From Salipiger mucosus DSM 16094 (GTDB lineage: Bacteria > Pseudomonadota > Alphaproteobacteria > Rhodobacterales > Rhodobacteraceae): DNA of 62,383 bases. Location: the NCBI RefSeq assembly GCF_000442255.1, contig NZ_KE557281.1, forward strand, positions 186,622 to 249,004, given 5' to 3'. The notes beneath the pieces are model-generated. The model saw only the letters and a program-made list of their open reading frames with translations. It did not search any database and was not told the DNA's origin. A program made the translations under genes and the position numbers. Positions 25,929 through 42,889 of the stretch are shown piece by piece; positions within the stretch are counted from its first letter, which is position 1; each line of letters begins with the position of its first letter.

Positions 25929-26651
25929 ATGCCCGACATATCGACCGCGTTCAACGAAATCAGGGAACAGCACGCCGATGAGGGTGTGCCGGCAACCAGG
26001 GAAATCCTGCATTCTCTCAAGGAGCGTGTCGGCGTCGAGCACTTCTGCTATCTTCGTATGGGCGACCGGGACCCCGACGATGTTGGGGCCGTCCTGACCA
26101 CCTACCCAGATGAATGGCACGACCGTTATGTCCGGCAGAATTACCAGCTCATCGACCCGGTCGTCCAAAAAGGACTGAAGAGCTTCCTTCCGATGGACTG
26201 GGCGCTTGCCAAGAAAGATGATCCTCTGGTGAGGCAGTTCTTCGGTGAGGCGGCTGAATTCGGGGTCTGCCCGAGCGGTCTCACGATCCCGGTTCGGGAT
26301 CCTCACGGTCGACGGGCCCTGTTTTCTCTGAATTCCGGCATGAAGCAACCCGAATTCGAAGGCTTCACCCGGGAATTCATGTCCGACCTCCAATACCTTG
26401 GACACCTTGTCCACGATCACGTTTGCCGAGAAGGCGGACTGGATTTCCCTCTCAAACTCCTGACAAATCGAGAAGTCGAAGTCATGAAATGGGCTGCTCT
26501 CGGGAAAACGAGCTGGGAAACCGCGCGCATCTGCAACCTCGCACCAAATACGGTCAAATTCTACGTCAGGAACGCGACCGCCAAACTCGAGGCCTCCAAC
26601 AAGGCTCACGCGGTAGCCAAGGCCGTCAAGATGGGCATCATTTCAATCTGA
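25929..26651 (+). CDS. LuxR-family quorum-sensing regulator
   Basis: 240 residues. The autoinducer-binding domain shows the conserved W63, Y67, D76 and P77 (EWHDRYVRQNYQLIDPVV) and W91, equivalent to TraR W57, Y61, D70 and W85. The C-terminal domain (about 178-240) is a GerE-type helix-turn-helix: LTNREVEVMKWAALGKTSWE, then TVKFYVRNATAKL. It should bind an acyl-homoserine lactone and DNA. The luxI gene follows 70 bases downstream in the same direction, so it is the likely cognate receptor. No strong ribosome site precedes the ATG, so translation may be weak. Confidence 0.92.
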   Translation: MPDISTAFNEIREQHADEGVPATREILHSLKERVGVEHFCYLRMGDRDPDDVGAVLTTYPDEWHDRYVRQNYQLIDPVVQKGLKSFLPMDWALAKKDDPLVRQFFGEAAEFGVCPSGLTIPVRDPHGRRALFSLNSGMKQPEFEGFTREFMSDLQYLGHLVHDHVCREGGLDFPLKLLTNREVEVMKWAALGKTSWETARICNLAPNTVKFYVRNATAKLEASNKAHAVAKAVKMGIISI

Positions 26652-26721
26652 CGGAACCCCTAAAAAAGTGAGTATGGACCGGCCTCCCCATCTCACCAAT
26701 AACCCAAGCCAAGGAGGCCAA

Positions 26722-27336
26722 ATGCTTCACTACGTCGACGACACCAACCGTAAAGAGAACCAGGATCTGCTCGACCAGATGTACGAACTGCGTGCACGGT
26801 CGTTCAAGGAACGCCTCGGTTGGCGCGTCGAGGTCATCAACGGTCGCGAGTACGACTACTTCGATGACCTGAACCCGCTCTACGTCATCGTCTCGGATGG
26901 CGCCGGCACGCTCCTGGCCTCCCTGAGGCTGCTGCCGACTCCGGGCCCGCACATGCTGGCTGATGTCTTCCCCGAGGTCATGGGCGACAAACAGCCGATC
27001 CGGAACCCCCTGGTCAGGGAAAGCTCGCGGTTTTGCGTCAATACCGACGCATCCAAGAACTATGCCCAATCGGGGATCAACACCGTGACGCGAGAACTTC
27101 TCCGTGGTCTTTTCGAGAACGCCTACGAAGTGGGGATGATGAATGTAGTTTCGGTCTACGACATCTACGTGGAGCGCATTCTCAAGCGCGCCGGTTGTAC
27201 CTTCGAGCGCCTCGGTCCGGTCGTTCGCTATGATGAAGGGCTGAAGACGACCTGCGGTCTGTTCGAAGTGTCCGAGGACGTAATTGAATCGTTGACGGAC
27301 GAAGTTCCTGTCCAGAAGACTGAGGCTCACGAGTAA
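26722..27336 (+). CDS. LuxI-family acyl-homoserine lactone synthase
   Basis: 204 residues; AAGGAGG precedes the ATG at 26722, which is preferred to a GTG at 26668. Invariant LuxI residues are present: R24/R26, F28, W34 (ARSFKERLGW), D48/D49 (YFDD), R69 (ASLRLLP), F83, and E100/R103 (VRESSRFCVN). The enzyme makes an acyl-HSL from S-adenosylmethionine and an acyl-ACP or acyl-CoA. The acyl donor cannot be read from sequence; the PaaK-like gene next door raises the possibility of a CoA-linked donor. Confidence 0.93.
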   Translation: MLHYVDDTNRKENQDLLDQMYELRARSFKERLGWRVEVINGREYDYFDDLNPLYVIVSDGAGTLLASLRLLPTPGPHMLADVFPEVMGDKQPIRNPLVRESSRFCVNTDASKNYAQSGINTVTRELLRGLFENAYEVGMMNVVSVYDIYVERILKRAGCTFERLGPVVRYDEGLKTTCGLFEVSEDVIESLTDEVPVQKTEAHE

Positions 27337-38315: not shown

Positions 38316-38753
38316 CCTTTTTCAAGGTACCAGACGGTTTCGGATTTTCTCAACGAGCCATGTGGTGGAACCCGAGCGACCTATATTTCTGGACATGGGC
38401 TCTCGGCAAGAACCTTCGATGACGACCTGTTCAAGGAAGGTCACAGCATCATTTGCCGGCTCGCCAAACACGTCCTCCTCGACAATGCCGAAGATATCCT
38501 GAAATTTCAGGGCGCCGATCCTGAGACCTGTCAACTCGACCCAAAACTGTGGACCGAGATCTTCATGGACGACATGAGCGACGTCATTTGTGACGAATGT
38601 CTTGAAATGGACTTTGTCAGTCAAATTGAGAAGATGTCGTTCAGAGAACTGGCAAGAGTGCTTCGACCCGATATCCTGCGTCAGCTCGCGGCCACGTCGG
38701 AAAACGAACCCAACCTTGACCACGAAGACGAACCTTCCAAACCAACCCCTTAG
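38312..38753 (+). pseudogene. Orphan gene split by a frameshift
   Basis: The ATG at 38312 overlaps the preceding stop and begins MTFFKVPDGFGFSQRAMWWN, PSDLYFWTWALG, then meets a stop at 38420-38422. Another frame is coding-like from about 38406: RTFDDDLFKEGHSIICRLAK, ILKFQGADPETCQLDP, ELARVLRPDILRQLAATSEN to a stop at 38753, but it has no start near its beginning. A one-base shift near 38403-38412 would give one protein of about 145 residues. No classical slippery heptamer is seen, so decay or a sequence error is more likely than programmed shifting. Confidence 0.5.
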
Positions 38754-38847
38754 CCGGGCTCATCGTCACCCAGCGACTGATGTCTTTTGCAATTTTTAAC
38801 TTCACGCGCACATCTATTCCTAAATCGTTTTGAGCGAGGAATAGTTC

Positions 38848-40521
38848 ATGAATTTCAAGACCGCACTACAGCGCCGCGGCGAGCGTGGCCTCAACCTCAT
38901 GGAGGTCGGCATCGCGCTTGTCGCGGTGACCTTCATCGTCATGCAGATCATGTCGATGCTCTCCGACAATGCTCGGACCCTGAAGTCACAGAGTGATGCC
39001 GAGAAGATGACGACGATCACGGAAGCCTCCGAGCGCTACCTCTCGACATACCGAAGTGATCTGCTCGCGGCCACTGGCGGCGGCGGCACTCTCGCGATCC
39101 CGGCAGGCCGCCAATGCGCAGGCTGTGCGCAGCCGTCTTCACCGGCCGGACTTCCGACAATCCAGGATGCCGGTTTCCTTCCGGACCTGTTCGTCGACAC
39201 GAACAGCAACCAGCAAAGCCATGCGCTTCTGGTGAAGCAAACCGCCGGCGGTGATCTGGAAGCGGTCCTGACGTCCTATGGCGGCTCCACGATGAGCGAT
39301 GAGAACGTCGGCCAGGTTTCCGCGCTTCTCGGAGCGGCAGGCGGTGGCGTTTTCAACAACGACGCCATCGGGGCCACCGATGAAATTTCAGGTGTCCATG
39401 GTGGATGGGGCGATGACGTTTCGAACTGGAATGCATCCATCGACGGCACCAACGTGCAACCTTCACCAGGGACGGTTCAAGTTTCCATGGGCCTGGCGGA
39501 CGTCGTCGGTGTCGGTGCCAGCATAGATGAGGACAAGTTCCTCCATCGAGAAGACTCTTCCGCCCCTCTGAACGGCATGGAGACCGACCTGCACATGGAT
39601 GGGGACGGGACCGAGCACAATATCGATGGTGTGAACTATATTCAGGCCAGAGAAGTTCGGGCGACCGAAGTTCGGGCAGCGGCCATGATCGATACGACAA
39701 CTGGCACTCCTCATCCGGATGGAGAAACCTGGGAGGTCAACCCGACGCACGGAACCTTCTTGAACCGCCTATATGCGGAACAAATGAACCTTGACGACAC
39801 AAAGTATCGAAACGACAAAATCGTATGGGGTGCGACCGGCACCATTGAAGGTCCCACTGATTTCACGGATGACATCACGGTGCAGGACGTCACAGCAGAC
39901 AACGTCTACGCCACGAACAGTGTCCAAGCGGCATCCATGTCCTCTACCGGGGATATTGCTGCCGACGGGAACATCGAAGTTGGGACCGTAACGCCTTCAG
40001 GGACCGGAAACATCTTTGTCGAGAACCGCGGGACCTTTGACCAAATCTACACGAACTCACTCGCGAACGTGGAGAACCTTCGCGTGAGAGGAGAGATCTA
40101 CGGCGACATCAGCTTCGGCTCCGGTGGCGCGACTTCCGTGGATTTCAACTTCGGAGGCACGACTACCTACATCGACGGAGCCGGTATTCATACAGACGGC
40201 TCCGTCGAGACCTCGAACCTGTACTTCACGTCGGACCGGCGCCTGAAAACAGACATCGAGGACATTGACGGGGACATGATTTCCGAACTTCGCCCGCGCG
40301 CCTTCACCTGGAAGGATGACGGTGGCAGCGCGCTGGGCTTCATCGCACAGGAAGTCGAGGAGGACTTTCCGGAGCTCGTCCGGACCGATCCCGAAACCGG
40401 CATAAAGTCGGTGAAGTACACCGATCTGATTGCCCCACTGGTCGCCAAGTCCCAGTCGACGGAGGACGCTCTGGAAGCCCTCACCGAGCGCGTCGAAGAG
40501 CTCGAAGACGCAAACCGATAA
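38848..40521 (+). CDS. Type IV prepilin (PilV-like) fused to an S74 chaperone domain
   Basis: 557 residues, GAGGAA before the ATG. GERGLNLMEVGIALVAVTFI has a type III signal: cleavage after G14, Glu at +5 (E19), then the hydrophobic pilin helix. Residues about 45-250 resemble a PilV/shufflon-type minor pilin. About 250-460 is beta-repeat rich (TGDIAADGNIEVGTVTPSGT), like a phage tail fibre. From S462 the end is a peptidase S74 intramolecular chaperone: SDRRLKTDIEDIDGDMISEL, RPRAFTWKDDGGSALGFIAQ, EVEEDFPELV and a closing coiled coil. S74 domains trimerise fibres and cut themselves off with a Ser-Lys dyad. Predicted pilus-tip adhesin. Confidence 0.8.
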   Translation: MNFKTALQRRGERGLNLMEVGIALVAVTFIVMQIMSMLSDNARTLKSQSDAEKMTTITEASERYLSTYRSDLLAATGGGGTLAIPAGRQCAGCAQPSSPAGLPTIQDAGFLPDLFVDTNSNQQSHALLVKQTAGGDLEAVLTSYGGSTMSDENVGQVSALLGAAGGGVFNNDAIGATDEISGVHGGWGDDVSNWNASIDGTNVQPSPGTVQVSMGLADVVGVGASIDEDKFLHREDSSAPLNGMETDLHMDGDGTEHNIDGVNYIQAREVRATEVRAAAMIDTTTGTPHPDGETWEVNPTHGTFLNRLYAEQMNLDDTKYRNDKIVWGATGTIEGPTDFTDDITVQDVTADNVYATNSVQAASMSSTGDIAADGNIEVGTVTPSGTGNIFVENRGTFDQIYTNSLANVENLRVRGEIYGDISFGSGGATSVDFNFGGTTTYIDGAGIHTDGSVETSNLYFTSDRRLKTDIEDIDGDMISELRPRAFTWKDDGGSALGFIAQEVEEDFPELVRTDPETGIKSVKYTDLIAPLVAKSQSTEDALEALTERVEELEDANR

Positions 40522-40527
40522 TCGGTT

Positions 40528-40555
40528 GCGGCGCCTGCGGGCGCCGCTTAAATTT
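40528..40555 (+). terminator. Terminator of the prepilin gene
   Basis: GCGGCGCC (40528-40535), a TGCG loop, and GGCGCCGC (40540-40547) form a perfect stem followed by TTAAATTT. It lies six bases after the stop. The next 220 bases (40556-40775) show no gene or repeat that I can support. Confidence 0.7.
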
Positions 40556-40779
40556 CAGGCCTCGTCCGATCTCATTGTCGCTACCTGGGACGACGAGCCT
40601 TTCGGAGATCCGGTGCGATACGCCGTCTTCGAGAACTTCCTGTTCCACCGATGTTGTCATGGATTGCCCGGATCCCACGGACTTACGCACGAAATTTCGA
40701 AGTATTTTCATGGCGTTGAGCAACCATTGAACTGATCGACGTTCATTCAGAAAGAGTTCGAGAAATGATAAGAGCAGTA

Positions 40780-40808
40780 TTGACGTCTATCCATTATAGC
40801 GCTAAAAA
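40780..40808 (+). promoter_or_regulatory. Candidate promoter and operator of the KfrA-like gene
   Basis: TTGACG (40780-40785), a 17-base spacer and TAAAAA (40803-40808) resemble a sigma-70 promoter. The palindrome TAGCGCTA (40797-40804) overlaps the -10, as expected if the KfrA-type protein represses its own gene, which is known for KfrA of RK2. Confidence 0.45.
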
Positions 40809-40840
40809 AGACCCACAGCACAAGGAAGACTTCAAGGACC

Positions 40841-41491
40841 ATGGCAAAGAAATCCACCGCCGTCGCCCACAACCGGATTGCAACCCGCGAGAAGGTTTTC
40901 CAGGCAGCGTCCATTCTCGAAATGCAAGGCGTCAGCCTGACTCTGATGAACGTTCGCAATCAGATCGGCGGTGGCGGCTTCAACACCATCAGCGCTCTGC
41001 TCGATGAATACCGGTCGACCAATGGGAAGAAGTTGCCGCCCAAGGCCCGTCGCATCCAGTCGGCGGCCGTCAATCAACTGTGGGACATCGCCGCCGAGAT
41101 CACGCGTGAGGAATTTTCGGAAACCGAAAAGGCGCTGAAGGACAAGCTGGCGGCGGCTCTGAAAGATCTCGAAAACGCGCGCGCCGTCACCGCAGAGGTT
41201 GCGAAGAACGCCGACATCACCGCCAATGAGCACCGCAGGCAGATCTCGCTCCTGCAGGGCGAAACCCAGGAAGCCAAGGACCGCGCCGATCAGTTCGAGC
41301 AGAAAGCCCGTCGCGTGTCGCTTGCCGAGAAGAAGGCGAAGGACGAGGCACAGCGTGCAGACGCCGCCGAGCAGCGCGCTGCCGTTGCCGAAATCGATCT
41401 CGAAGGTGCCAACGCCGAGATCAATCGCCTAAAGGCCCAGCTCGCCGCCGCCCGCACCGGAAAACCGGTCGCCCTCAAGGAAGCCGCCTGA
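40841..41491 (+). CDS. KfrA-like plasmid DNA-binding protein
   Basis: 216 residues. The N-terminal domain TREKVFQAASILEMQGVSLT, LMNVRNQIGGGGFNTISALL and DEYR is the KfrA_N helix-turn-helix. The rest (about 85-205) is one long Ala/Glu/Lys coiled coil (NARAVTAEVAKNADITANEH, KARRVSLAEKKAKDEAQRAD). KfrA of IncP plasmids is an autorepressor that multimerises and helps plasmid segregation. This is the clearest plasmid-type gene in the window. Its 3' end overlaps an opposite-strand gene. Confidence 0.8.
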   Translation: MAKKSTAVAHNRIATREKVFQAASILEMQGVSLTLMNVRNQIGGGGFNTISALLDEYRSTNGKKLPPKARRIQSAAVNQLWDIAAEITREEFSETEKALKDKLAAALKDLENARAVTAEVAKNADITANEHRRQISLLQGETQEAKDRADQFEQKARRVSLAEKKAKDEAQRADAAEQRAAVAEIDLEGANAEINRLKAQLAAARTGKPVALKEAA

Positions 41492-41859
41492 TCGCGGCAT
41501 GCCGACGGACTGGTGATCTGGGACTCGTGGATGGAGTGCTCCATCGACGGATCATCTTCGAGAGCCGCGATTACCCTCTGGTCATTGAGCGCATATTTCA
41601 GGGCATGAAAGCAGGCTTCCCCGGCCAGCGCGAATGCCTCCGCTTCCTGCATCCGCCGGGAGGGAGCCCGGCGATCCCACTTCACCGCGGCATCGAGGGC
41701 ACTATCCTCGCGCGGGCCGCTGACACCGCAGGCGTGGCACACGGCCTGGTAAACCGAAGCGTCGCCTTCCGGCCGTTCGATGGACGTGACGGATGTCTGG
41801 TCACTGGCGCACATCGGGCAATCCGCGAGATCGGTTGTCTTGAGAAGCGTTTGATCCAT
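41290..41859 (-). CDS. Lar-like zinc-ribbon protein
   Basis: Start ATG at 41859 with GGAAGGA on the complement. Residues 1-70 match the Lar (restriction alleviation) zinc ribbon: DCPMCASDQ, YQAVCHACGVSGPREDSALD, AAVKWDRRAP, with two C-x2-C pairs. The middle (QEAEAFALAGEACFHALKYA) is a plausible helix. The last 65 codons run antisense to the KfrA coiled coil and are Ser/Ala/Arg-rich, so that part may be fortuitous. Lar modulates type I restriction in Rac prophage; the role here is unproven. Confidence 0.5.
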   Translation of the reverse strand: MDQTLLKTTDLADCPMCASDQTSVTSIERPEGDASVYQAVCHACGVSGPREDSALDAAVKWDRRAPSRRMQEAEAFALAGEACFHALKYALNDQRVIAALEDDPSMEHSIHESQITSPSACRDQAASLRATGFPVRAAASWAFRRLISALAPSRSISATAARCSAASARCASSFAFFSASDTRRAFCSN

Positions 41860-42004
41860 ACTCTTTCCTTCCGCACGTCGGCAGCCTGCCTGGGAGGCCG
41901 CGAATTCAATTAATTCTTACACCGCCATCCTGAATAGATCAAGGATAAGTTGACAAATGGCGCCGTTCGACCAAATTGGAAACAAAGGATAGCAGGAGGG
42001 CGCC

Positions 42005-42889
42005 ATGTCCGGACGCAATGCACGATACCAATTTTTCTTCCGGGAGACGGCCTCGCGTATCGGCGAGCGCCCCGTCAGCATCGCTGCCGGCCTGGTCGAA
42101 GCCCCGGCCGGCAGCATCGATCCCCGCGTCGTTCACCAGTTCGCACCGAACCGGGGAGAAAACGGTCGCCTCGACAGCCTCTCGATCCTGGAACACAAGG
42201 TTCCGTTCCAGTCGGTCGACGCGAACGGCACGATGTCGGATCCCGTTCTCGCATCGGACCCGGACCATCTTCTCGAGTCTCCGATCTGGCCGCTGTCCCA
42301 GGTGTTCGATCTCGGGGCCCTGCAATTCCGGAAGGTCGACATTCCCCCGGCCGAGGATGGTAACGAGGTCTTCGCGACATTCGGGATGGTCGGTGCGCGT
42401 GGCCTAGCCCTCGACTACACGAAAATCTCAGTGTTCGAAGGCGAACACAACGACATCGAGCCCAAGCAGTTCCGCGGTTATCTAGGTCATGACGTTCTTC
42501 CGGAACGCGACGTCCCCGACATGGATGAGGACATGCGGGGCGAGCCCATGAAGGCACTCTGGCGCAAGCCGCTGTGGGGTTTCGGACCCGAGCCTTACGT
42601 GATCCCGACATTCGCATCGCGCGAAGAGGTCTCTGCCTGGACGGAAATCGCGAACCGCATCGGCGACGGGGCCGAGATCGATGAGTTGCCGGACCGGCTT
42701 CACCGTTGGATCGGCGTCCAGCGCGACGAGGGATACGTCCAGGTTACGCGATATCTGCACGAGAACTACCCCGATTACTTCGAGAATGCATACGCGCCAC
42801 GGACGGCCGCGCAAGATGCCGCCCACAGCGAACGCATGAAAGAAGCAGTTCGGGAAACGGTCGCGGCGCCAGTCGGCATGACACCGTAA
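42005..42889 (+). CDS. Orphan protein, 294 aa
   Basis: AGGAGG precedes the ATG at 42005. The protein is soluble with mixed alpha/beta content (RYQFFFRETASRIGERPVSI, ALQFRKVDIPPAEDGNEVFA, LHRWIGVQRDEGYVQVTRYL). No signal, membrane segment or motif recognised. A strong terminator follows, so it is probably monocistronic. Confidence 0.5.
   Translation: MSGRNARYQFFFRETASRIGERPVSIAAGLVEAPAGSIDPRVVHQFAPNRGENGRLDSLSILEHKVPFQSVDANGTMSDPVLASDPDHLLESPIWPLSQVFDLGALQFRKVDIPPAEDGNEVFATFGMVGARGLALDYTKISVFEGEHNDIEPKQFRGYLGHDVLPERDVPDMDEDMRGEPMKALWRKPLWGFGPEPYVIPTFASREEVSAWTEIANRIGDGAEIDELPDRLHRWIGVQRDEGYVQVTRYLHENYPDYFENAYAPRTAAQDAAHSERMKEAVRETVAAPVGMTP

Follow-up and report, generated by a model that had tools for sequence, protein, structure and literature searches.

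A likely PilV tip pilin of Salipiger mucosus ends in a phage-type S74 chaperone domain, a fusion that recurs in pil operons

In the conjugative plasmids TP114 and R64, the C-termini of PilV decide which recipients are used (PMC9045228, PMC5430464). Among type IVb minor pilins, TcpB and CofB assemble as trimers that sit at the tip of the pilus (PMC9565799, PMC8179133). The S74 domain drives trimerization of fibers and subsequently removes itself; in T5, this removal has been suggested to expose the receptor site (PMC4690869). Cleavage takes place in front of a serine that is activated by a lysine located five positions further on, as exemplified by S911/K916 of endoNF, S587/K592 of MyRF and S1264/K1269 of T5 pb1 (PMC8326128, PMC4690869). 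S74 also operates in a bacterial surface fiber of Bdellovibrio (PMC10769870). A 2021 InterPro survey lists pilin-S74 (IPR012902-IPR030392), annotated as a putative peptidase, among the 15 most frequent modular pilin architectures (PMC8179133). Here we analyze such a gene, encoded within a stretch of 62,383 nucleotides (hereafter, the window) of Salipiger mucosus DSM 16094 (contig NZ_KE557281.1, positions 186,622 to 249,004). We consider it likely that this gene encodes a PilV, the minor pilin and tip adhesin of the type IVb pilus of an I-type conjugative element, in which a phage-style trimeric fiber ending in an S74 chaperone takes the place of the usual receptor-binding C-terminus.

The N-terminus of the window protein reads MNFKTALQRRGERG, followed across the expected cleavage site by LNLMEVGIALVAVTFIVMQ, corresponding to a prepilin leader and then a long hydrophobic helix (predicted for residues 17-67). 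The site itself, RGERG/LNLMEV, ends a 14-residue leader, with G occupying position -1 and E position +5; the same motif is aligned in relatives. When the window protein was used as a tblastn query, plasmid relatives aligned across 44-45% of its length. They included an unannotated Rhizobium record (E 7e-23), Bosea ANAM02 (labelled hypothetical, 9e-21) and Bosea RAC05 (annotated as PilV, 6e-19). In BLASTP, the body of the protein matched these three plasmid PilVs of Bosea and Rhizobium at about 33% identity over about 255-262 aligned residues, scoring 118-126 bits versus at most 25.4 bits in a shuffle control (n=200). Both plasmid PilVs that were scanned pass the Pfam cut-off for Shufflon_N (E 3.6e-11 and 8.8e-19). 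The window protein itself has no pilin match in Pfam, nor in NCBIfam up to E 0.1, and Pfam N_methyl does not match it, though it matches four distant relatives. With no direct match to Pfam, NCBIfam or PilV profiles, its homology to PilV is therefore established via these relatives. Foldseek searches with both structure models of the protein returned nothing significant, and a VIA second look was suggestive at most. A profile scan of genome contigs with the PilV alignment found one relative, in a Roseococcus metagenome-assembled genome. Two faecal records named 'Bacteriophage sp.' (H21 and H23; MT835540.1 and MT836063.1) match the PilV body of P0003, a close relative of the window protein from Salipiger sp. 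PrR003, and are perhaps conjugative elements wrongly labelled as phages.

At the other end of the protein, Pfam detected Peptidase_S74 (PF13884; E 4.5e-14, 52.9 bits versus a cut-off of 22), the only S74 domain in the genome, and no other domain up to E 5. In PHROGs, 19 families matched at E up to 1, tail-fiber families that align to the C-terminal part coming first (best 3.7e-24), and a scan of viral contigs gave a single match, confined to S74. A preliminary, sequence-only reading had already seen a prepilin signal, a PilV-like body, a fiber-like stalk and an S74 domain in this one protein. All four parts stand, as does their combination in a single chain. Of the profile matches which that reading had proposed to look for, S74 was obtained directly and Shufflon_N on both relatives scanned, but no pilin profile matched the protein itself. 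The PHROGs result, together with the deposited name of P0003 ('tail fiber domain-containing protein'), could also be read as a sign of a prophage or plasmid tail-fiber gene with an N-terminus that is hydrophobic by chance. We reject this scarcely credible reading because the homology to PilV extends over the 255-262 or so aligned residues at scores well separated from those of shuffled sequences, and because the same fusion is found where pil operons have their pilV, as described below. The parts of the gene are listed in Table 1.

Table 1. Features of the PilV-S74 gene (window coordinates; the gene starts with ATG and its open reading frame bounds are exact).
Feature	Coordinates	Strand	Basis
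pilV-like gene, PilV-S74 fusion, 557 aa	38848..40521	+	ORF call, Pfam, tblastn
Type III (prepilin) leader, residues 1-14; expected cut after G14, E19 at +5	38848..38889	+	Sequence, alignments
PilV-type pilin body, residues 15-262	38890..39633	+	tblastn, alignments, BLASTP versus shuffles, helix prediction
CxxC (C90-C93), also present in three close relatives	39115..39126	+	Alignments
Tail-fiber-like, beta-rich stalk, residues 263-461; low model confidence	39634..40230	+	PHROGs, structure model
S74 intramolecular chaperone region, spanning residues 462-557; the Pfam hit covers 462-512	40231..40518	+	Pfam, dyad alignment
SDRRLK, catalytic dyad S462 + K467; self-cleavage expected immediately before S462	40231..40248	+	Sequence, S74 precedents
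C-terminal helix, residues 524-556; trimer coiled coil expected	40417..40515	+	Model; role from S74 structures
Terminator-like hairpin directly past the stop codon; hit class at chance level (2 found, 2.0 expected)	40528..40547	+	Hairpin scan

The fusion is not confined to the window. Three close relatives (P0002, P0003 and P0009) have both parts; P0009 as deposited lacks the full prepilin motif because its record begins at a methionine inside the motif. In Alphaproteobacteria, the PilV profile matched 48 of 385 genomes at 1e-3. Among the genes read from these genomes, four distant ones (in G628, G791, G525 and G716) start with N_methyl and end in S74 (E 1.4e-15 to 1.4e-17), both over their cut-offs. 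S74 is present in 5 of the 47 complete PilV-N open reading frames (ORFs), the window ORF among them; these 47 were pooled from fetched loci only (for many profile hits, no locus was obtained), and some of them are weak hits or, in a few cases, resemble PilS. When the G525 protein was searched against a database, with scoring limited to the 7994 candidates sharing most words, 114 matches were obtained. Of these, 92 had PF13884 and at least 94% coverage and were counted as full-length, the other 22 being partial, S74-only or without S74. The PilV-N and S74 profiles matched all 92, although S74 relatives were among the sequences underlying the PilV profile used for this count and for that of the 47 ORFs. 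All 92 also possess both the strict prepilin motif and SDxxxK, each of which is found in 5% of shuffles; a looser first prepilin pattern was passed by 25%. The sequence-only reading had staked itself on orthologues retaining the N-terminal signal, and it survives this comparison. Since P0010 and P0067 share their last 300 residues with the G525 and G791 genes, the search contributes 90 further proteins, and 98 of the 99 alignment rows are distinct. When five of the 92 that carry a precomputed Shufflon_N label were rescanned, two passed the cut-offs for Shufflon_N and for S74 within a single chain, whereas the remaining three fell marginally under that for Shufflon_N. In another PilV search, most of the 100 of 398 matches extend no further than the generic prepilin N-terminus.

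Other extensions of PilV were observed along the way. In one of the 47 ORFs that lacks S74 (genome G820, L190:6096-7481), a PilV body (Shufflon_N, 1.4e-40) is joined to a Phage Tail Collar domain (2.1e-9), another phage fiber module on a pilus tip protein. A different genome (G511, L123:6295-10877) encodes two PilV paralogues in tandem, whose long ends are rich in repeats, and a third copy on a different contig.

We next consider whether the S74 domain is likely to be released. A counterpart of the S462/K467 pair is present in all eight sequences first compared, SDxxxK is kept in 99 of 99 rows, and S462, D463 and K467 account for three of the nine invariant columns of the alignment. Self-cleavage at this Ser-Lys dyad has been demonstrated in phages, MyRF and the Bdellovibrio fiber (PMC4690869, PMC8326128, PMC10769870). 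Together, the conserved dyad and these precedents suggest that the S74 domain of the window protein probably cleaves itself off and is shed after folding. One observation weighs against cleavage: the oxyanion Arg of phage S74 proteins, at position -14, is found in 0 of 99 rows. This absence, and the fact that cleavage is here a prediction from sequence, would fit the same tip protein with an S74 domain that stays in place as a permanent trimerization cap, perhaps providing the adhesive end itself. Such a cap deserves consideration but seems unlikely in view of the invariant dyad and its demonstrated activity elsewhere. Far less probable is the idea that S74 is a peptidase effector borne by the pilin, which is how the 2021 survey reads the architecture (PMC8179133). 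In the proteins described in the cited texts, the S74 dyad cuts its own chain, freeing a folding chaperone, and these texts describe no S74 that acts on other proteins.

The genomic position of the distant homologs also points to PilV. Bosea proteins used as tblastn queries identified PilN, PilO2, PilQ and PilR in this order in both G791 and G716, plus TcpQ in G716. Downstream of these genes are prepilin-like ORFs, a short membrane-anchored ORF and, last on the strand, the S74-PilV gene. The short ORF is in the PilM position, a name given by the R64 gene order or by its place, and it has no Pfam match. S74-PilV is immediately preceded by a comparable short ORF in G628 and G525 as well, but the fetched stretches of these two yielded no other Bosea pil genes. 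Thus, S74-PilV is located in a pil operon in two of the four distant genomes. In both Bosea plasmids, pilV is immediately followed by a gene for a small protein with an N-terminus that by eye resembles a signal (L024:16600-17109 and L025:13473-13958). By analogy, this protein might be a pilus-tip partner like CofJ or TcpF.

We then built a tree from 31 PilV bodies, of which 28 belong to the 47 ORFs (those with bits >82 and length >300) and three are proteins. The window group falls within the same clade as Bosea, Rhizobium and Roseococcus (support of 99/99), apart from the small-genome S74 group. The distribution of S74 on the tree requires two changes, and a single change suffices in 0% of 200 bootstrap trees. 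Moreover, an approximately unbiased (AU) test, for which the S74 group was named beforehand, rejected a single S74 clade (p 0.0057). One of the S74 rows (G716) has a long branch and its placement is unsure. The tree and the AU test indicate that S74 was acquired or exchanged on two or more occasions, or else lost several times.

If the window gene encodes a tip pilin, a pilus machine should be sought elsewhere in the genome. The window forms the terminal part of contig C9. On C9, all ORFs of three relatives' loci, searched at E 1e-10, matched nothing but pilV and one 147-residue ATPase stretch, the latter outside the window. As far as this search shows, the sequence-only reading was correct that the window has no pilus assembly genes. 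Contig C2 of the same genome carries a pil operon with TcpQ, PilN, PilO, PilQ and PilR, plus several PilS/bundlin-type pilins. The same contig encodes three Dot/Icm-like transfer genes (DotH/IcmK, 1.1e-61; DotI/IcmL, 9.6e-58; and TrbI) and a prepilin peptidase at 217 kb, a second peptidase being on C7. Bosea backbone genes, namely those for a replication protein, topoisomerase 3 and a thioredoxin-fold protein, are on C2 too. The expected pilV slot on C2, beside the ORF in the PilM position, is occupied by a gene with a YqaJ match barely over the cut-off. No second pilV was detected in the genome, the sole other match to the body having E 0.2.

C9 and the initial 640 kb of C2 stand out by base composition. 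Their G+C is lower (0.58-0.65, in a list that omits 500-540 kb of C2) than in 20 stretches from 13 other contigs (0.65-0.71). Tetranucleotide distances, averaged over unequal numbers of stretches, are 1.05-1.6 within this low-G+C set, compared with 3.1-8.3 from other contigs to the window. This shared unusual composition suggests that they are probably one large replicon or have a common source. We found no end overlap between C2 and C9 and no sign of circularity in either. A search for RepC, meant to tell replicons apart, found no match in the genome and just one, below the cut-off, in 14 control genomes, so that it is uninformative on this point. At about 620-640 kb of C2, there is a step in G+C inside the one contig, from about 0.61 up to about 0.69, and tetranucleotides shift alike, reflecting either an integrated element or a chimeric contig. 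Among 20 genomes of the genus, pilV has a match only in the window's own genome, the 19 relatives having none. A full-length pil ATPase match is likewise restricted to that genome, and partial matches (33-35%) in three others are probably other secretion ATPases.

The separation of pilV from the pil operon raises the question of whether the C2 pilus uses it. The gene could be an orphan relic or a spare tip, displaced from the operon. In addition to its location on another contig, the filled pilV slot on C2 would fit this scenario, as would the presence, between the PilO and PilQ genes, of genes for an IS110 transposase and for an IscB-like protein with RRXRR+HNH (C2:524207-526973, L031:207-2973). 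However, the frame is intact with every motif kept, no other pilV was detected in the genome, the two contigs share their composition and thus probably one replicon or source, and of the 20 genomes of the genus one has both loci while the remaining 19 have neither. We therefore regard a relic or spare tip as quite improbable.

Taken together, these data favor a PilV with an exchanged tip, for which we infer the tip position, the trimer, both cleavages and use by the C2 machine. According to the model, the protein would be exported as a prepilin and its 14-residue leader, recognized by its motif, would be removed. By analogy with characterized S74 proteins, S74 and the C-terminal helix would gather three chains and template the beta stalk. 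Correct folding would set S462 beside K467, and a cut before S462 would free the chaperone and expose the fiber end. The three pilin bodies might then start or cap the filament of the PilN/O/Q/R machine encoded on C2, and the exposed end could bind the recipient cell surface prior to DNA transfer. A broader proposal, to which we give somewhat less than even chances, is that these proteins form a widespread type IVb tip class, with at least two fusions to phage fiber ends, that matures like tail fibers. In this tentative scheme, S74 self-cleavage would be a fold checkpoint, such that only trimerized, unmasked tips start a pilus. If this is true, S74 modules catalogued as pilin-borne peptidases would have to be re-read as self-removing assembly chaperones, and there would be a handle on how a trimeric type IVb tip is assembled and checked before filament growth. 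Plasmids and phages share the task of choosing a cell surface. If conjugative pili do use self-trimming phage fiber ends, then the choice of mating partner and phage host range would draw on one pool of exchangeable parts.

As for the neighborhood, a KfrA-type plasmid regulator (40841-41491) lies immediately downstream of pilV. About 11 kb from pilV, a LuxR-type regulator is followed by a LuxI-type autoinducer synthase (25929-27336), making quorum control of mating conceivable. Following the suggestion of the sequence-only reading to look for inverted repeats on the replicon, we found no inverted repeats of the kind that flank R64 shufflon cassettes in 38600-42600, the stretch that was covered; repeats there are short and chance-like. 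A shufflon was therefore rejected based on the absence of cassette repeats in this stretch and the single S74 gene in the genome, the cassette search extending to that stretch and S74.

How does the window protein compare with known systems? The modular S74 pilins of the 2021 survey likewise join a prepilin motif to S74 in one chain, and the available text of the survey does not link them to PilV, pil operons, conjugation, trimerization, self-release or a chaperone (PMC8179133). As far as we searched the open-access literature, the PilV bodies of the S74 pilins examined, the position of some at the end of pil operons, the invariant dyad, the absence of a single S74 clade and the chaperone reading are new. 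The same applies to the finding that the window copy is the only pilV detected in its genome and that the pil operon there has none. PilV of the IncI plasmids R64 and TP114, the tip adhesin of thin pili, shares with the window protein the prepilin leader, the Shufflon_N-type body and a variable C-terminus. In contrast, the window protein ends in an S74 fiber, its gene is flanked by no cassette repeats in the stretch covered and it stands apart from the operon. In R64, the pil operon is accompanied by I-type transfer genes, as is the pil operon of the window genome. CofB and TcpB are type IVb minor pilins with a beta-rich trimeric tip extension, to which the window protein is likened by analogy rather than by sequence comparison; as points of difference, they bind secreted CofJ and TcpF, and to our knowledge they lack S74. 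The PilV-Collar protein of G820 resembles the window protein in combining a PilV body with a phage fiber module, but its end is of the collar type, without S74. In phage S74 fibers and spikes (T5 pb1, endosialidase NF), a Ser-Lys dyad S74 domain follows a beta stalk and is succeeded by a C-terminal helix, just as in the window protein. However, the N-terminus of the phage proteins binds the virion, whereas that of the window protein is a type IV prepilin, and the oxyanion Arg is not conserved. Finally, the Bdellovibrio MAT fibers, like the window protein, represent a cellular surface fiber with an S74 SDxxxK motif, but they start with a signal peptide and a MAT N-domain where the window protein has a prepilin.
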